Shown piece after piece: positions 35,426 to 45,555 of a stretch of 54,927 nt of DNA. Source of the stretch: an uncultured bacterium. Lineage in GTDB: Bacteria > Krumholzibacteriota > Krumholzibacteriia > LZORAL124-64-63. Made by a program: the position numbers and the translations under genes. The DNA lies in assembly GCA_903912525.1 (NCBI GenBank), contig CAIWHK010000019.1, positions 1 to 54,927 on the forward strand. Direction: 5' to 3'. The notes under the pieces are model-generated. The model had not been told where the DNA came from. It saw only the letters and a list, made by a program, of their open reading frames with translations, and searched no databases. Position 1 is the stretch's first letter, and the number at the start of each line of letters is the position of its first letter.

Positions 35426-35474
35426 CATGCCGTGGCAGCGTCGCTGGTGGCGCCGCCGACCGCCCCGAGGTCCG

Positions 35475-36620
35475 ATGACCGCTCCCCGCACACCTGAACC
35501 CGTGCCTGCCATCGGGATCGACGCGGCGACCCTCGCCGCCCTGCTCGCCCGCGCCTGCCCGGCTCATCACCTGGACCTGGCCGGCGCTGTCGTGCTGCCG
35601 TGCCCGCTGCCGCACGCCGACATCTGGCGCTCGTACGTGGCCGAGGGACGCCACGGCGGCCTCGACTATCTCGCGCGCGATCCCGAGGCGCGCCTGGACC
35701 CGACGCGGCGTGACGCGTGGGCCGGCGCGCTGCTCATCTTCGCGCAGCGCTACACCGACGGCTGGCCGCGCGGCGACACCGACCCGAGCGCGGGCGGCCC
35801 GGCCGGCGCCGCTGATGACCCGCCCTGGACCGCGCGGGTGTCCCGCTACGCGCGCGGGCAGGACTACCACGACCTGCTCAAGGGCGACATCGAGGGCACG
35901 CTCGCGGCGCTGGCGCGCGAACTGCCGGGCCTGCGCGCGCGCGTGGCCGTCGACACCGGCCCGTACCTCGAGCGCGAGTATGCCTGGCTGGCCGGCCTCG
36001 GTTTCCTCGGCCGCAACACCTGCCTGATCCATGAGAAGCTGGGGTCGGGGATGTTCCTCGGGGTGGCGCTTGTGAACCTGCAGGTGGCGGGGCTGCCGCC
36101 CGCCGGCGTGCCCGCGGTCGAACCGCTGTACGCCGTCGCCGCGCGCCGTCGCCACGTCGCGCCGGTGGCGCCCGCCTCGCGCTGCGGCACGTGCACGCGC
36201 TGCGTCGAAGCTTGTCCCACGCAGGCGATCCGCCCGGGCGGCGGCCTGGATGCCGGGCTGTGTCTGAGCATGTGGACCATTGATCGGCGCGGCGAGGCGC
36301 CCGTCGGACGCGATGCCGAGCAGGGTGGCCTGCTCTTCGGCTGCGACATCTGCCAGGCCGTGTGTCCGTGGAATACGCACGCCGATGCCACGCCGCCTGC
36401 AGGCCTGCCGCCGGTGCGCGACGGCTATGCGCCACTGGCCGCACATGACGAACTGACCCTGGCAGACCTGGCTGAACTGCCCGACGATGCCTTCGCCGCG
36501 CGCTTCCGTCGCACGCCCCTGTGGCGCTGCCATCCCGACGGCCTGCGTCGCAACGCTGCGCGCGTGCTGGCGAACCTCAAACAGGGCGCCGGCGACGACG
36601 CAGGGCAGGAGCGGCCGTGA
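35475..36620 (+). CDS. queG: Epoxyqueuosine reductase QueG
   Basis: 381 residues. It catalyses the last step of queuosine synthesis, reducing epoxyqueuosine to queuosine in tRNA, with cobalamin and two [4Fe-4S] clusters. The ferredoxin-type cysteines are 'CGTCTRCVEACPTQAI' and 'CDICQAVCPWN'. Also typical are 'VSRYARGQDYHDLLKGDIEG' and 'AWLAGLGFLGRNTCLIHEKLG'. The C-terminal 'RTPLWRCHPDGLRRNAARVL' is the HEAT-like end. ATG 35475 has GAGG upstream and fits the family N terminus better than ATG 35427. It overlaps the radical SAM gene by four bases. queF lies just beyond on the other strand. Confidence 0.93.
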   Translation: MTAPRTPEPVPAIGIDAATLAALLARACPAHHLDLAGAVVLPCPLPHADIWRSYVAEGRHGGLDYLARDPEARLDPTRRDAWAGALLIFAQRYTDGWPRGDTDPSAGGPAGAADDPPWTARVSRYARGQDYHDLLKGDIEGTLAALARELPGLRARVAVDTGPYLEREYAWLAGLGFLGRNTCLIHEKLGSGMFLGVALVNLQVAGLPPAGVPAVEPLYAVAARRRHVAPVAPASRCGTCTRCVEACPTQAIRPGGGLDAGLCLSMWTIDRRGEAPVGRDAEQGGLLFGCDICQAVCPWNTHADATPPAGLPPVRDGYAPLAAHDELTLADLAELPDDAFAARFRRTPLWRCHPDGLRRNAARVLANLKQGAGDDAGQERP

Positions 36621-37621
36621 CCGCCGCCGCGGCCCCGCCCGCCGCCTGGTGGCGCCCGCAGGCGAACGGCCAGGCCGCGTGCGACCTCTGCCCGGTCGGC
36701 TGCCGCCTGCGCGTGGGGCAGGTGGGGCCCTGCGGCACCCGCGCCAACCACGGCGGCGCCATGGTCCCGCTGCACTACGGCCGCATCGCCGCGCTGGCGC
36801 TCGACCCGATCGAGAAGAAGCCGCTCTACCACTTCCACCCCGGTCGCGACATCCTGTCGGTGGCCGCGCCCGGCTGCAACCTGCACTGCGCGTTCTGCCA
36901 GAACTGGAACCTGAGCCAGCGGCACGACGCGTCCACGCGCCCGGCCACGCCCGCCCATCTGGTGGACGCCGCGCTTGCCGACGGTTCGGTGGGCCTGGCC
37001 TTCACGTACAGCGAGCCGTTGGTCTGGTTCGAGTTCGTGCGCGATGCGGCCCTGGCCGCCCGCGCCGCCGGGCTGAAGGTGGTGCTGGTCACCAACGGCT
37101 ACCTGAACCCGGGACCGCTGGCCGAGTTGCTGCCGCTGGTCGACGCCGCCAACATCGACCTCAAGGCGATGGACGACCGCTTCTACCGGCGCGTGTGCCG
37201 GGCGCGCCTGCAACCGGTGCTGGACGCCATCACCCGTTTCGTCGCCGCCGGCGTCCACGTCGAGCTGACCAACCTGGTGATCCCCGGCCACAACGACGAT
37301 GACGCGTCGCTGCAGGCCCTTGTCGATTTCGTCGCGGGGCTCGGTCGACCGGTGCCGCTGCATTTTTCGGCCTACCACCCCGCCTGGAAACTGCAGGCGC
37401 CGGCGACGCCGCGCGCCACGCTCGAGCGCGCGCACGACCTGGCGCGGCAGCGGCTGGACTGGGTCTACCTCGGGAATATCGTCGGCGCCACGGGACGCGA
37501 CTCCCGTTGCCCGGGCTGCGAGGCTGTGCTGGTCGATCGCGCAGGTTACCGCGGCGTCTCAAGGCTGACGCCGCAGGGGGCCTGTCCCGCCTGCGGCGTC
37601 GTGCAACCGTTCGTCATGTAG
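36617..37621 (+). CDS. AmmeMemoRadiSam-system radical SAM enzyme
   Basis: A 334-residue radical SAM protein of the PflA-like group annotated as 'AmmeMemoRadiSam system radical SAM enzyme'. The cluster motif is CxxxCxxC in 'APGCNLHCAFCQNWNLSQ' (near 90). An N-terminal 'CDLCPVGCRLRVGQVGPCGTR' cysteine region and a C-terminal zinc-like 'CPGCEAVLV...CPACGVVQPF' are both typical. 'LAFTYSEPLVWFEFVRDAA' and 'NIDLKAMDDRFYRRVC' are barrel motifs. The start is GTG 36617, coupled to queG (GTGA) with AGGAG upstream. The AMMECR1 and Memo partners that name the system are not within this window. The reaction is unknown. Confidence 0.87.
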   Translation: MTAAAAPPAAWWRPQANGQAACDLCPVGCRLRVGQVGPCGTRANHGGAMVPLHYGRIAALALDPIEKKPLYHFHPGRDILSVAAPGCNLHCAFCQNWNLSQRHDASTRPATPAHLVDAALADGSVGLAFTYSEPLVWFEFVRDAALAARAAGLKVVLVTNGYLNPGPLAELLPLVDAANIDLKAMDDRFYRRVCRARLQPVLDAITRFVAAGVHVELTNLVIPGHNDDDASLQALVDFVAGLGRPVPLHFSAYHPAWKLQAPATPRATLERAHDLARQRLDWVYLGNIVGATGRDSRCPGCEAVLVDRAGYRGVSRLTPQGACPACGVVQPFVM

Positions 37622-37627
37622 CCGGCG

Positions 37628-37990
37628 TCACCGCTTGGCGTCCTCGTGCGTCACCGTCACCACGGTGCCGATGCCCCCGCGCACGAACCACTCGCCGCGG
37701 ATGATCATCCGGCGCGGCTTCGTCGCCGCCACCAAATCGTCCAGGATCTGGTTGGTCACCTTCTCGTGGAACGCGCCCTCGTTTCGGTACGACCACAGGT
37801 ACAGCTTCAGCGACTTCAGTTCGACGCACTTGCGGTCCGGCACGTACGTGATGAACAGGCGCGCGAAGTCGGGCTGTCCCGTCAGCGGGCACAGGCAGGT
37901 GAACTCGGGGCAGTCGAACTCGATCTCGTAGTCGCGCTCGGGGAACGGGTTCGCGAACGACTTGAGCTTCTTCGACGGGCTCGTGGCCAT
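37628..37990 (-). CDS. queF: preQ0 reductase QueF (NADPH-dependent 7-cyano-7-deazaguanine reductase)
   Basis: A 120-residue unimodular (type I) QueF, which reduces preQ0 to preQ1 in queuosine synthesis. The catalytic cysteine is in '[15 protein letters not shown]' and the substrate motif is '[20 protein letters not shown]', followed by '[20 protein letters not shown]'. ATG 37990 ([11 protein letters not shown]) is preferred because a GAGGA lies upstream and the family starts there; an open extension to 38074 is less likely. It is convergent with the queG - radical SAM operon, six bases separating the stops, so two queuosine genes meet tail to tail. Confidence 0.94.
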
Positions 37991-38075
37991 GGACGGGTCC
38001 TCGCTTGGTGACGTGGCGAATGGCTGGCGCGCCCCATAGTACCGATCCCAGCGCCGGCGGGCAACTTCCGACATG

Positions 38076-39406: not shown

Positions 39407-42400
39407 TCACTTCACCAGCGCCATGCGCCCGACGGCACGCTGGTCGCCGCCGTTCACTTCGTAGAAATAGACACCCGCCGCAACCGGACGTCCATTCGTG
39501 TCGTCGCCGATCCACGTGACGTCGTGCGTGGCCGCCTCGAGGTCATCATCGACCAGCGTCTTGATGTGGCGACCCGCGATGTCGTAGATGCTGACGGTCA
39601 CGTGCGCGTTCGCCGGCAGCACGAAGCGGATCGTCGTCTTCGGGTTGAACGGATTCGGGAAGTTCTGTTCGACGCGGAACGCCGCCCCGGGCACGTCGCC
39701 CGGCACCGGCGAGACGTAGCAGGCGCCCAGCAGCGCACCGATCTGTCCGCAGGCGCCGCTGTTGGCGGGCCGGCAAGGCGAGGCCTGCTGCAGCCCGAAG
39801 TCGAACGTCGCGGCGTTGCAGAACAGCGGGTCGGTCCCGATGTTGCCGCCCGTGCCGGTCGGGTCGGTGATGCCCGTCCAGCCCGCGTTCTGGTTGCCGT
39901 GGACATCGTTGCACGTGGGTGTGCCCGTCGCCCCGGCCATCGCGATGCCGTTGCCGAACGACGCGCCGCCGAAGTTGAAGGCCGAGATGTTGCGACTGAT
40001 CGTCGCCGCGCCGTTGGAGACGTGGATGCCGCCGCCGCCGCTGCCGCCGGTGTTCGCGGTGACCGTGTTGCCGGTCACGCTGCTGCCCGGGCTGGCGTCC
40101 ACCAGGAGGCCGCCGGCCCAGTACTGGCCCAGGTTGCCGTGGAAGACCGAGTTGCTGACGGTGCTCGCGCCGCAGCCGTTGACCGCCACGCCGCCGCCCA
40201 CCTGCGCCTGGTTGCCGCGGCAGACCAGGCCGTTCAGCGTGGCCACAGCGCCGCCGGTGGCCTGCAGGCCGCCGCCGTACATGAAGGTCGAGGCCGCTGT
40301 CTTGGTGTTGTTCTCGAACACCGTGTTGGTCACGTGCAACGTGCCGCCGGTGTGGTACAGGCCGCCGCCGCCGCCCTTGGCGCTGTTGCCGGTGAAGGCG
40401 CCGCCTGTGATGTTCGCGGTCGATGAGGAGGACAGGCCGCCGATCCAGGCGCCGCCGCCGAACTCGAGGCCCAGGTGGCCGCTGATCGTGCAGTTGGTCA
40501 GGCTCAGGTTGGTGTCGATGGCATAGACGCCGCCGCCCTTGGCGGGGTAGGTGCCGTTGCCGGTCACCGGCGTGTTGTCGGCGATGACGCAGTCGGTCAA
40601 CGTCGGCGCGCCCCCGAGCACGAACAGACCCGCGCCGTAGACGCCGGTGTTCCCGGAGATCTCGCAGTTCTGCAGGCTGGCCGACGAGTTCGACAGCAGC
40701 ACGCCGCCGCCGCAGCCCAACTGGCCGGCGCTGCCCACGGTGTTGCCGTGCACCTTGAGGTTGCGCAGGACGGGGGAGACCTGGTTGACCAGCACGCCGC
40801 CGGCCGAACGCGTGCCCGGGGCGATGATCGACATGTTCTGGCCGTTGCCGCCGGAGATGTCGAAGCCGTCCACTTCGGTGGTCTGGGTGATCGTCCCTGC
40901 GAACGTCAGCACCACGCCGCCGCTGCCGTTGATCGGCGTGCGACCGCTGGTCAGGTTGCGCGTCACGTAGCCGGGATTGTAGCCGCCGAAGACCTTCAGG
41001 CCCTTGCCGAAGACCGTGAACGGGCTGGGCATGACGGTCGAGCCGAGGATCTTGACCGTGTCGCCGGCCGCGGCGCAGTTCATGGCGTCGAACAGCGTCG
41101 GGAACTCCTGCGGGTACTGGTGCACGTTGTCGCCCAGCGCCTTCAGCAGGTTCACGCGCCCCCAGCCCAGCTTGCCTGCGTACGGCAGGTTCAAGGCATC
41201 GATGTTGTCGGCACTGGACTGGATCAGGCTCGCGACCTGGGTCGAGGTCCAGCCCGGATGCCCCGACCAGATCAGGGCGCAGGCGCCGGCGGTGATGGGG
41301 CTCGAGAAGCTGGTGCCCTGCGTCGTCGTGTAACCGTGGGTTCCGGAACTGAAGTCGAACGACGTCGTGTAGATGCCTTCCCCGGGCGCCGAGATGTCGA
41401 CCCAGGTTCCGTAGCTCGAGAACGACGTGCGGGTATCGCCGGCGCCGGTGGCCGCGACGGCCAGGATCCGGTCGTCCGCCAGGCCCTGGATGTAGCCCGC
41501 GACCTCGTCGTTGTCGTTGCCCGCCGCGACGCAGATGATCATGCCGGCATTGAGCGCGGAGTTCACGGCGTTGACGAGGGCCGTGATCCCCGAGGTGCCG
41601 GAGGAGATGTTGATGATCTTGGCCCCGTTGACCCTGGCGTAGATCATGCCTGACGCCAGCGCCGCCATGTAGTTCACGCCGACGCCGTCGATGTTCAGGG
41701 CGCCGACGCGGACCGGCATGATCCTGCAGCCGGGCGCGATCGCCGCGACGCCGATGCCGTTGCCGGTGATCGGCGCGATGCAACCGGAGACCATGGTGCC
41801 GTGGCCGCCGAAGTCCATGGGGTCATTGTCGGTGACGCCGAAATCCTCGCCCGGATAGACCTGGCTCTCGGGAACGTTCACGAAGTCCCAGCCCCGGATA
41901 TCGTCGATGTAGCCGTTGGTGTCGTCGTCGACGCCGGGCGTGCCGTAGTATTCTTCCCAGTTCGTCAGGATGGCGCCGTTGACCTTGTCGGGATGCGACC
42001 CGCCGAGGTCCGGATGCATCCAGTCGACGCCGCTGTCGAGCACGGCCACGATGATGCTCGAGTCACCCAGGGTCTGCGACCAACCGCCGACCGCGCGCGT
42101 GTCGCCGCCGCCGATCGAGGTATTGCGGAGGTGCCACTGCGCCGCCAGGTCGTTCGGCATGTACGCCGTACCGTCGACCTCGACGGCCATGTCCGACTCG
42201 GCGGTCTCCACCTGCGGCAGCGCCAGCAGTTCGGCGATGACGGCGTCGTTGCCGGCCTTGTCCGAGTGCTCAAGCAGGAAGAACCGCTCCAGGTCGCGCT
42301 GGCTCGCGGCATCGAAGGCCTTGGCGGGCAGCGCGCCGAAGAGCGGCTTCAGGGCGTCGGCGCCATGTCGCTGCAGTACGGCGTCAAGGCTGCTCACGCC

Positions 42401-42571
42401 CGTCTTCAGGGCGCCCTGCGACACGGCGACAGTCGGCGCCATGCCGGGCTTGAAGCCGACGACAACGCGGCCGGTGACAGGGACAGCCGGCTTGGCAGAG
42501 GCCACGCATGGCAGGGCCATGGCCAGGCACACCCCGACGGCAAAGAGGAGCGACAGCGCTGACTTCTTCAT
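39407..42571 (-). CDS. Large exported subtilisin-like (S8) protease with beta-helix and C-terminal sorting domain
   Basis: 1054 residues. Signal peptide at 1-~26, then a propeptide-like region (about 30-130, inhibitor I9 type). The S8 catalytic domain spans about 140-490, with D179 (VAVLDSGVD), H257 (GGHGTMVSG), oxyanion N352 (AAGND) and S421 (GTSFSSP). Residues ~510-960 form a right-handed parallel beta-helix of Asn/Gly-rich turns ('CEISGNTGVYGAGLFV', 'CTISGHLGLEFGGGAWI', 'NTVTANTGGSGGGGIHV'), like polymorphic outer membrane protein repeats. The C terminus is a FlgD-like/type-A domain from 'FPNPFNPKTTIRFVL' to 'GRMALVK'. It is probably surface-displayed or secreted. ATG 42571 has GGAG upstream. 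Single-gene unit. Confidence 0.92.
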   Translation of the reverse strand: MKKSALSLLFAVGVCLAMALPCVASAKPAVPVTGRVVVGFKPGMAPTVAVSQGALKTGVSSLDAVLQRHGADALKPLFGALPAKAFDAASQRDLERFFLLEHSDKAGNDAVIAELLALPQVETAESDMAVEVDGTAYMPNDLAAQWHLRNTSIGGGDTRAVGGWSQTLGDSSIIVAVLDSGVDWMHPDLGGSHPDKVNGAILTNWEEYYGTPGVDDDTNGYIDDIRGWDFVNVPESQVYPGEDFGVTDNDPMDFGGHGTMVSGCIAPITGNGIGVAAIAPGCRIMPVRVGALNIDGVGVNYMAALASGMIYARVNGAKIINISSGTSGITALVNAVNSALNAGMIICVAAGNDNDEVAGYIQGLADDRILAVAATGAGDTRTSFSSYGTWVDISAPGEGIYTTSFDFSSGTHGYTTTQGTSFSSPITAGACALIWSGHPGWTSTQVASLIQSSADNIDALNLPYAGKLGWGRVNLLKALGDNVHQYPQEFPTLFDAMNCAAAGDTVKILGSTVMPSPFTVFGKGLKVFGGYNPGYVTRNLTSGRTPINGSGGVVLTFAGTITQTTEVDGFDISGGNGQNMSIIAPGTRSAGGVLVNQVSPVLRNLKVHGNTVGSAGQLGCGGGVLLSNSSASLQNCEISGNTGVYGAGLFVLGGAPTLTDCVIADNTPVTGNGTYPAKGGGVYAIDTNLSLTNCTISGHLGLEFGGGAWIGGLSSSSTANITGGAFTGNSAKGGGGGLYHTGGTLHVTNTVFENNTKTAASTFMYGGGLQATGGAVATLNGLVCRGNQAQVGGGVAVNGCGASTVSNSVFHGNLGQYWAGGLLVDASPGSSVTGNTVTANTGGSGGGGIHVSNGAATISRNISAFNFGGASFGNGIAMAGATGTPTCNDVHGNQNAGWTGITDPTGTGGNIGTDPLFCNAATFDFGLQQASPCRPANSGACGQIGALLGACYVSPVPGDVPGAAFRVEQNFPNPFNPKTTIRFVLPANAHVTVSIYDIAGRHIKTLVDDDLEAATHDVTWIGDDTNGRPVAAGVYFYEVNGGDQRAVGRMALVK

Positions 42572-42632
42572 GAACACTCCGTTGGGCTTGGGAAGGCCAG
42601 ACATTGAATAGTGGCACCATCCGACTTAGTAG

Positions 42633-42665: not shown

Positions 42666-43877
42666 GTGAATCACATCCCGCTAAGTCCCAGTTCCGGGAA
42701 TGCCGGGGAAACGGAGCCGGTCGCTTTGGCCCATCGCTCAGTGCTGTTCCTGGAACCGTGGGATGACGGCTCCCATCGCGCCTTCCGCGAGGGGCTGCTG
42801 GCCCATTCACGTCACCGCTATCTGGTCCATACGCTTCCCGGTCGTTTCTGGAAGTGGCGCATGAGGGCGGCCGCGGCCTGGTTTGCCGACCGCCTGAACG
42901 AGCAGCCGCCGGCGGCCCACCTCATCCTGACGACAGGATTCCTGAACGTCGCGGACCTGCGCGGCCTGCTGCGCCCGCCTCTGGACCGGCTGCCGGTCAT
43001 CCTCTACATGCACGAGAACCAGCTGACCTACCCGCTGAGCCCGCTCGAGGAGTTCGACTTCCACTTCGGGTTCACGAACATCATCAGTTGCCTGGCGGCC
43101 GACCGCGTCGTCTTCAACTCGGCCTGGCACCGCGACCTGTTCCTGGACGCGATCCCCGCCTTCCTCAACCGCATGCCCGAGGCCGTGCCGAAGGATGTGC
43201 CGGCGCGCATCCGTGCCCGCAGCGAGGTCGTGCCCGTCGGGCTCGAGCGCGCACCGCTGCCGGCCAAGCATTTCCCGCAGTATCGCGGCGGCCATTGCGA
43301 GCCGGAAGTCGGCCCGCGCTGGCCGCGCGGGGAGCGTCCGCTGCTGCTGTGGAACCATCGCTGGGAGTTCGACAAGCGCCCGGAGATGTTCGCCGCGGCG
43401 TTGAACGAGCTGCTCGATCGCGGGCTCGATTTCGACGTGGCCCTGCTGGGCGACCCGGCTGACCGCGAGGCGGTCTTCGCACCGGTGGCCGAGCGCCTCG
43501 GCGCGCGCTGCCGCGCCTTCGCCTGGATCCCCGAGCGCCGCACCTACGAGGCGTGGCTGGCGGCCGCCGACATCGTTGTCAGCTGTGCGGCGCAGGAGTA
43601 CTTCGGCATCTCGGTGGCCGAGGCCATCCACGCCGGCGCCTACGCGGTGCTGCCGCGCGGCCAGGTGTACCCCGCGCTGTACGGCCCGGGCTGCAAGGGG
43701 CGCCATTTCTATGACGACCAGGCCCAGCTGGTGGAGCTGCTGGCCGAGCTCATCGGGGGCGATGCCTGCGGCCACGTCTGCGGCCTGGACCAGGTGGCGG
43801 ACAAGTGCGTCTGGAGCCGCGTTGCGCCCCAGTTCGACGCCCTGGTGACTGCCTGCGACCCCAAAGCGGGGCGCTGA
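42666..43877 (+). CDS. tRNA-queuosine mannosyltransferase-like (QTMAN/GTDC1, DUF3524) glycosyltransferase
   Basis: 403 residues. The N-terminal half carries the distinctive QTMAN/DUF3524 text: 'VLFLEPWDDGSHRAFREGLL', 'HSRHRYLVHTLPGRFWKWRM', 'ILYMHENQLTYPLSPLEEFD', 'FGFTNIISCLAADRVVFNSA'. The C-terminal half is a GT-B domain with 'LLLWNHRWEFDKRPEMFAAA' and the acidic 'EYFGISVAEAIHAG' donor motif. The animal homologue mannosylates queuosine in tRNA-Asp. That the bacterial protein does the same is inference, helped by queG and queF being within 8 kb. The start is uncertain: GTG 42666 lacks a clear ribosome-binding site, and a TTG or GTG at ~42727-42741 is possible. It is divergent from the subtilisin gene. 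Confidence 0.82.
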   Translation: MNHIPLSPSSGNAGETEPVALAHRSVLFLEPWDDGSHRAFREGLLAHSRHRYLVHTLPGRFWKWRMRAAAAWFADRLNEQPPAAHLILTTGFLNVADLRGLLRPPLDRLPVILYMHENQLTYPLSPLEEFDFHFGFTNIISCLAADRVVFNSAWHRDLFLDAIPAFLNRMPEAVPKDVPARIRARSEVVPVGLERAPLPAKHFPQYRGGHCEPEVGPRWPRGERPLLLWNHRWEFDKRPEMFAAALNELLDRGLDFDVALLGDPADREAVFAPVAERLGARCRAFAWIPERRTYEAWLAAADIVVSCAAQEYFGISVAEAIHAGAYAVLPRGQVYPALYGPGCKGRHFYDDQAQLVELLAELIGGDACGHVCGLDQVADKCVWSRVAPQFDALVTACDPKAGR

Positions 43878-44070: not shown

Positions 44071-45555
44071 GTGAACGACGGCGGCTCCAGGCCCGAGAAC
44101 GACAACGTCGGCAGCAACCCCGGCAACCCCGGTAATGGGGGCAACGAGGGCAACGGCGGTAGCGGCGGCAATCAGGGTGGTCGCCCGGCCGGCGACCGCG
44201 GTGATCGCCCCGAGCGCGGACCTCGCGGTGGCTCCCGTCTGCGCGGTACCGGGCGTGAGCCCGGCCGGATCAGCCGCGTGCCGGCCAGCGGCATCGGCGG
44301 CGGTGGTGCGGCATCGTCAGGCGGTGGCGGTGGTGGCCGCGGGCGCGACCGTGACCGTGACGGTGGTCGCGACGGTGGTCGCGACGGTGGTCGTGATGGC
44401 GGCCGCGACGGTGGTCGTGATGGCGGCCGCGACGGTGGTCGTGATGGCGGCCGCGACGGTGGTCGTGATGGCGCCCGCGACGGCGGTCGTGATGGCGCCC
44501 GCGACGGCGGTCGTGATGGCGCCCGCGACGGTGGCCGCGACGGCGGTCGTGATGGTGCCCGCGCCGGCGGCCGCGACGGCTACCGCGACCGGCGTCCCGG
44601 GCCTGGTGGCCCGCGCCCGCCCATGGCGTCAGGCTCCCCTTCGGGTTCCGGCGGCGGCAGCGGCGGCCCGCCATTCCGCTCCAGTTCATCCACGGCTCCC
44701 GATCCCATGCCCGCCGACCCGGTCATCACGCCCGAGGCCCAGGCCCTGGCGTTGACCGCGTGGGACATGGCGCGCACGCGCCGCGACAAAGAGGACACGC
44801 CGCGCGGCAAGCTCATGACGCTGCGCACGCACCAGAAGCTCATCGCCGCGATCGAGTTGGGGCGCCACATCCCCGAAGAGGACCGCACGTTCCTGCGTGT
44901 CCGCGAGAACGCGCGCGGCTCGTTCCTGCTCATCCACGGGATGTCGACCGGCCCGGCCGACCTGCGCGGCCTGGCTAAATACCTCGGCGACAACGAGTGC
45001 AACGTCTGGGTGATGCGCCTGCCCGAGCTGGGCGCTACACCGGGCCAGATCAGCCATGCGTCGTGGGAATCGTCGCTGCTGCAGGCTCGACAGCGGTGCC
45101 AGATGCTCTCGCGTGGCGGCGGCGACCTGCACGTGGTGGGCCTCGGCTACGGAGCGGCGCTGGCGCTGCACGTGGCCAGCGAAGAGCCCGTCTCGAGCAT
45201 CGTGCTGCTGGCGCCGGCACTGATGCCGCGCGTGTCCCTGCTCCAGCGGCAGATCGTGCGGCTGCGCCTGCATCGCCTCGGTTTCTTCCGAAAGCTGCTT
45301 GGCCTGAACGCCGACCTGCTCGAGGGCATGGATGTCGCGCGCAGCCGCGTCGGTCGCGTCAAGGTGCCGATGTACGCCGCGCAGTGCGACGACGATGATC
45401 GCGCTTCGCCGGCCTCGCTGCGCTTCCTGCAGCGCAAGGCGCACAACAATGAGTCGCGGTTCAAGGTGTTCCCGACCGGCGGGCACGCCATCCTGGCGGC
45501 CCACGGCGAGCGCGTGCTGTTCGGGGAGATCCTGAAGTTCTGCGGAATCCGCTAG
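44071..45555 (+). CDS. Alpha/beta-hydrolase-fold protein with long RDGG low-complexity N terminus; nucleophile replaced by Gly
   Basis: 494 residues. Residues 1-~200 are disordered: Asn/Gly-rich first, then about 20 RDGG/RDGA units (44352-44590). About 285-494 is an alpha/beta-hydrolase domain: 'SFLLIHGMSTGPADLRGLAK' (oxyanion strand), 'LHVVGLGYGAALALHVASEE' (nucleophile elbow), 'YAAQCDDDDRASPAS' (acid) and 'FPTGGHAILA' (His). The elbow reads G-L-G359-Y-G where G-x-S-x-G is expected, so the Ser nucleophile is absent and ordinary esterase activity is unlikely. The start is GTG 44071 with AGGAAA upstream. No signal peptide. The role is unknown; the Arg/Asp/Gly tail suggests nucleic-acid or condensate-type binding. 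Confidence 0.75.
   Translation: MNDGGSRPENDNVGSNPGNPGNGGNEGNGGSGGNQGGRPAGDRGDRPERGPRGGSRLRGTGREPGRISRVPASGIGGGGAASSGGGGGGRGRDRDRDGGRDGGRDGGRDGGRDGGRDGGRDGGRDGGRDGGRDGARDGGRDGARDGGRDGARDGGRDGGRDGARAGGRDGYRDRRPGPGGPRPPMASGSPSGSGGGSGGPPFRSSSSTAPDPMPADPVITPEAQALALTAWDMARTRRDKEDTPRGKLMTLRTHQKLIAAIELGRHIPEEDRTFLRVRENARGSFLLIHGMSTGPADLRGLAKYLGDNECNVWVMRLPELGATPGQISHASWESSLLQARQRCQMLSRGGGDLHVVGLGYGAALALHVASEEPVSSIVLLAPALMPRVSLLQRQIVRLRLHRLGFFRKLLGLNADLLEGMDVARSRVGRVKVPMYAAQCDDDDRASPASLRFLQRKAHNNESRFKVFPTGGHAILAAHGERVLFGEILKFCGIR
44352..44590 (+). repeat. In-gene tandem repeat encoding (RDGG/RDGA)n
   Basis: About 20 head-to-tail 12-bp units (CGCGACGGTGGT / CGTGATGGCGGC, often as 24-bp pairs), all in frame with the gene at 44071. 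Later units have GCC for GGC (RDGA). The alternation of synonymous codons in a regular order points to recent unit duplication, and copy number is likely to vary between strains. Confidence 0.9.

Follow-up and report, generated by a model that had tools for sequence, protein, structure and literature searches.

Sugar-modified queuosine (Q) has, within the literature found, been described in animals only. There, mannose is joined in alpha linkage to the allylic hydroxyl of Q in tRNA-Asp, and the glycosylation is strictly regiospecific (PMC12518689). The window analyzed here, a stretch of 54,927 nucleotides from an uncultured bacterium, encodes a homolog of the animal enzyme QTMAN (GTDC1) and raises the question whether bacteria glycosylate Q as well. 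The initial annotation had suggested that this bacterium may do so; co-occurrence of the gene with TGT supports the suggestion. On balance, the gene quite probably encodes a QTMAN-family glycosyltransferase that acts on Q-tRNA in bacteria, a predicted function for which catalytic activity and the acceptor Q are inferred.

The family and its name already exist in Pfam. The interest lies in the prediction of bacterial Q glycosylation, which can be tested, and in an unexpected link of the gene to Chloroflexota that lack queA. A literature search returned no report of glycosylated Q (mannosyl-Q) in bacteria, which is weak evidence as subscription journals lay mostly outside its scope. The term DUF3524 gave no match in this search, and Chloroflexus combined with queuosine gave nothing relevant. 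If bacteria make glycosylated Q, knock-out strains of simple organisms would suffice to study the modification, tests of its role in decoding would no longer require an animal, and the question of where the animal enzyme came from in evolution would become testable.

Gene structure and translation start

The reading frame is open at the position given in the initial annotation, but its GTG start had to be revised. The true start is probably the TTG codon located 60 nucleotides downstream (Table 1). In an alignment of the gene region with its three nearest relatives (86-93% identical), conservation of the DNA ends at this TTG, and the gaps on its 5' side are not multiples of three and break the frame. 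The start column reads TTG or GTG in all four sequences, each time behind a purine-rich stretch. The first 20 residues of the longer reading are also of low confidence in the AlphaFold model. The gene is present as a single copy in the source genome (4.29 Mb, 98% complete). Just 3' of it, an alpha/beta hydrolase reading frame (44071-45555) carries an N-terminal array of approximately nine 24-bp units at 44355-44579, which is rich in GGRD. A near relative (L002) shares this array, and farther relatives have different extensions that are rich in R, G and S.

Table 1. Positions of the genes and domains discussed in the text (window coordinates) and of the TGT loci with a GGSLG pocket.
Feature	Position	Strand	Evidence or remark
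queG, epoxyqueuosine reductase	35427..36620	+	PF08331 QueG_DUF1730, E=1.9e-9; TIGR00276, E=3e-52
queF, preQ1 synthase	37628..38074	-	TIGR03139, E=2.9e-52, above cut-off
Subtilase, secreted, C-terminal sorting tail	39407..42604	-	PF00082, E=1.1e-42; divergent, between queF and the QTMAN homolog
QTMAN homolog, earlier reading	42666-43877	+	GTG start, 403 aa
QTMAN homolog, likely CDS	42726..43877	+	TTG start, 383 aa; start from DNA alignment of relatives
QTMAN_N (acceptor-side) domain	42741..43244	+	PF12038
GT4-type nucleotide-sugar (donor) domain	43329..43754	+	Glycos_transf_1, residues 222-363
TGTs with GGSLG pocket, genomes without queA (G391, G399, G423, G431, G455, G465, G471, G479, G503, G534, G541, G562)	TGT loci L088-L098, L200		

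Domains, conserved residues and fold

The N-terminal part of the protein had been assigned to the QTMAN/DUF3524 family and combined with a GT-B domain, and both assignments were confirmed. Residues 26-193 match the Pfam profile PF12038 (QTMAN_N) over positions 2-168 of 168 with 199.1 bits (E=6.1e-59), far above the cut-off of 25 bits. The Glycos_transf_1 match of the C-terminal part reaches 26.5 bits and is barely above its cut-off of 26.4. An alignment of 42 diverse homologs contained the first domain in 42/42 and the second in 40/42 sequences. Residues of QTMAN_N that are invariant or nearly so are GSH (35-37), WxWR (62-65), YxHENQ..YP (114-123) and NS (151-152), and the conserved motifs of the donor domain are RWExDK (232-237) and EX7E (311-319), all in the 403-residue numbering. 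Of 21 invariant columns, 12 fall into the acceptor domain and nine into the remainder of the protein; constraint on the acceptor domain is as tight as on the donor domain. In GT4 enzymes, the acceptor domain tends to change when the acceptor does, and these invariant columns therefore argue for one acceptor across phyla.

GT4 enzymes act mostly on polysaccharide, lipid or small-molecule acceptors, and the bacterial family could glycosylate an acceptor of this kind and have been recruited for tRNA in animals. Such a history is considered improbable, given how strictly the acceptor domain is conserved from phylum to phylum and given the evidence on gene neighborhood, distribution and TGT type described below.

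The AlphaFold model (pLDDT 89, pTM 0.89) adopts a GT-B fold. A Foldseek search of the PDB placed it next to GT4 enzymes, with E down to 2.4e-13 and probability 1.00, and to further GT-B enzymes; PimA, which uses GDP-mannose, is among the neighbors. A sequence search of the PDB returned no chain that is recognizably homologous over the full length. As UDP-sugar as well as GDP-sugar users are found among the structural neighbors, the fold gives no reading of donor choice. The transferred sugar is likely mannose with GDP-mannose as the donor, and by analogy with animals the substrate among the four GUN tRNAs would be tRNA-Asp. A Q-tRNA glycosyltransferase that employs a different sugar or acts on another tRNA or hydroxyl (e.g., on all four GUN tRNAs) would be a special case of the same function. 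This special case is rather unlikely, even though identity to the window protein falls to 30-40% among the bacterial homologs, the deepest branches of the gene tree are long and the structural neighbors use both types of donor. That specificity can vary is exemplified by the second animal enzyme, QTGAL, which places another sugar on the same base, Q34, of another tRNA, tRNA-Tyr (PMC12518689). Against altered specificity stands a provisional comparison with human GTDC1, for which an approximate sequence was used: both domains align with the window protein (34.5% and 36.8% identity), and of 45 columns conserved in bacteria, on the acceptor and the donor side, 40 show the same residue in this approximate sequence.

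Queuosine genes and gene neighborhood

The source genome encodes the late steps of Q synthesis, leading from preQ0 to Q, with tgt, queA, queG and queF as its genetic capacity. The queG product scores 177.7 bits against TIGR00276, which is under the strict cut-off of 200. The queA gene is split across the ends of two contigs; one end adjoins tgt (G000:C30:31870-32925) and the other half is located at the end of contig C6. The TGT pocket reads GGLSVGE and is of the valine-containing preQ1 type. In a normally conserved active-site stretch, the same enzyme (L144:1871-2926, minus strand) reads DSAGFQ, compared with DSGGFQ in the other TGTs that were read. The reading frame of an AmmeMemoRadiSam-type radical SAM gene (36521-37621) overlaps the end of queG, and this gene pair is kept in close relatives.

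The QTMAN homolog could form a local queuosine cluster with queG and queF. Both genes do lie within 8 kb, as the initial annotation had pointed out; measured between gene edges, queG is approximately 6.0 kb and queF 4.6 kb upstream. They recur at 3-10 kb from the homolog in close relatives (queF in up to 15, queG in 11). This proximity is nevertheless no sign of a functional unit, and a cluster is very improbable. A queuosine operon would have its genes adjacent and co-directional, but queF and a divergent 3.2-kb subtilase gene intervene on the opposite strand. Unrelated neighbors (the subtilase, the hydrolase and an HD-GYP-like protein) hold the same order in close relatives, and the order is kept only among these. 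Around the homologs in Desulfobacterota, Spirochaetota and Chloroflexota, queG, queF, tgt and queA were sought and none was detected. Gene neighborhood was rejected as functional evidence for these reasons. The recurrent neighbors elsewhere, judged by eye, are a YidD-like protein, a secretion ATPase, a UvrD-type helicase and a PP2C-type phosphatase; since these are unrelated, the QTMAN homolog behaves as a stand-alone gene. A few Desulfobacterales loci with adjacent second GT4-like and methyltransferase-like genes would fit an acceptor other than tRNA, but no recurrent glycan gene cluster was found near the gene.

Distribution and co-occurrence with TGT

Relatives of the gene are encoded at 460 candidate loci in a collection with one genome per species. 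The nearest relatives in public genomes belong to Candidatus Krumholzibacteriota, and 54 of the 80 Krumholzibacteriota genomes carry a homolog. One of the carriers, Desulfonema magnum 4be13 (L069), can be cultivated. No PF12038 match was obtained in four archaeal control genomes. Phage and plasmid records were also without a match, and a single weak glycosyltransferase match in a viral contig was limited to the donor domain; a mobile or phage origin was rejected on these grounds.

The initial annotation had proposed to compare the distribution of the family with that of tgt, queA and queG, and an occurrence mostly in genomes without tgt would have spoken against a role in Q modification. The opposite was observed. 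TGT was detected in 76 of 80 carriers from Krumholzibacteriota, Spirochaetota, Desulfobacterota and other phyla, including all 35 that are near-complete (at least 90%), and in 24/24 carriers from Chloroflexota (100 of 104 carriers tested overall). Among 50 carriers reached from homolog loci, mostly Desulfobacterota and Spirochaetota, 45 contain queA. Within Krumholzibacteriota and Spirochaetota, co-occurrence with queA was set aside as uninformative because queA is near-universal there (75/80 and 211/217 genomes). The eight Spirochaetota carriers among 217 genomes all have queA, and Q-positive genomes are often without the gene, as this phylum exemplifies.

As Q is widespread, co-occurrence discriminates only where tgt varies, and one such phylum was sampled. 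In 221 Chloroflexota genomes, tgt is present in 180, queA in 142 and the QTMAN homolog in 24. All 24 carriers but only 156 of 197 non-carriers have tgt, and none of the 41 genomes without tgt contains the gene (Fisher p=0.0099, kinship ignored). Together with the presence of TGT in nearly all carriers, this absence argues against an acceptor unrelated to Q.

Contrary to expectation, queA was found in only 8/24 Chloroflexota carriers and is missing from 16. Among genomes with tgt, the gene occurs in 16 of the 39 that lack queA, compared with 8 of the 141 that have it (odds ratio 11.6, kinship ignored). Thirteen of the 15 Chloroflexota sequences in the gene tree that come from genomes without queA form one clade, and those of G425 and G465 are placed elsewhere. 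Because of this clustering, the Fisher p-values overstate the independent evidence, which amounts to about three lineages. Co-occurrence is seen with tgt; it does not generally extend to de novo synthesis of Q.

Probable queuine salvage in Chloroflexota without queA

TGTs that salvage queuine have the pocket motif GG[LS][AS]G in place of the GGLAVG of preQ1 enzymes, whose valine clashes with the queuine diol (PMC11570991). A valine-free pocket, GGSLG, was present in 12/12 TGTs read from the 16 carriers without queA (Table 1) and is one position away from the published salvage motif. The eight Chloroflexota carriers with queA all show GGL[SA]VGE. In G465, the GGSLG-type TGT is encoded directly downstream of a queuine-salvage gene, PF10343 (Qng1, queuine release), and such TGTs also lie directly beside PF10343 in G466, G498 and G522, which supports a role in salvage. 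The queA-less Chloroflexota carriers thus probably import queuine, as animals do, by a route that is otherwise incomplete in gene content. If this prediction is right, the gene tracks Q itself and not Q synthesis, as it does in animals. That no queuine importer has been demonstrated for these carriers would favor another acceptor for the family, but their retention of a TGT with a valine-free pocket counts against it.

Two candidates for a general salvage partner were examined and rejected. Qng1 (PF10343) occurs in 2/16 carriers without queA, which dismisses it for most of them, and is nominally rarer in carriers than in non-carriers. The QPTR transporter (PF02592, a known queuine transporter family) gave one clear and four weak matches in the same 16 genomes. 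Queuine scavenging as a lifestyle is known mainly from bacteria that live inside cells or in the gut; the queA-less Chloroflexota are candidates for free-living scavengers, mostly without an obvious known transporter.

Further TGT types were observed in this phylum. Nine genomes without queA (G388, G524, G552, G396, G545, G484, G404, G492 and G476; loci L179-L182 and L184-L188) encode a second type with the pocket GGLAGDET, which fits the published salvage motif, and are without a QTMAN homolog. In G466, G498 and G522 (L100, L101, L193, L194 and L195), the GGSLG-type TGT beside Qng1 is found although queA is present. In G498 and G522 it is accompanied by another TGT, which reads GGESIG, so that the two TGTs of these genomes probably differ in specificity.

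Proposed mechanism and origin

For the predicted Q-tRNA glycosyltransferase, the following order of events is proposed. Q would first be made by TGT, QueA and QueG, or be acquired by queuine salvage through TGT. The C-terminal domain would bind the nucleotide sugar, most likely GDP-mannose, via RWExDK and EX7E, and the QTMAN_N domain would bind the anticodon loop that contains Q34. A hexose would then be transferred onto one hydroxyl of the diol on the Q34 cyclopentene ring. As this diol is absent from preQ1, Q or queuine would be required, which agrees with both the co-occurrence with TGT and the pattern of queuine salvage.

A wider and more tentative proposal, to which slightly less than an even chance is given, is that glycosylated Q is an old bacterial tRNA modification in several phyla, made both by bacteria with their own Q synthesis and by free-living Chloroflexota relying on imported queuine, and that animals obtained the enzyme from bacteria. 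The last part follows from the position of the approximate human GTDC1 sequence inside the bacterial gene tree, beside homologs from Krumholzibacteriota and Planctomycetota, which as a single long branch is a lead only.

Comparison with known systems

The bacterial proteins share with animal QTMAN the two-domain layout of QTMAN_N (PF12038) and a GT4 domain but are without the long interdomain insert of the approximate human sequence. Their hosts would build Q de novo or salvage queuine via a bacterial-type TGT. GlgM, MshA, SenB and PimA, GT4 enzymes of known structure, have the same GT-B fold, C-terminal nucleotide-sugar domain and EX7E-type motif; their N-terminal domain differs, and sequence identity is only 10-19%. 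QTGAL, the tRNA-queuosine beta-galactosyltransferase, also has Q34 as its target base but is a separate enzyme that attaches another sugar at another hydroxyl. Among bacterial enzymes, GluQ-RS (glutamyl-queuosine synthetase) is known to further modify Q34 of tRNA-Asp. Unlike the predicted glycosyltransferase, GluQ-RS adds glutamate and, as a paralog of aminoacyl-tRNA synthetases, has an unrelated fold.
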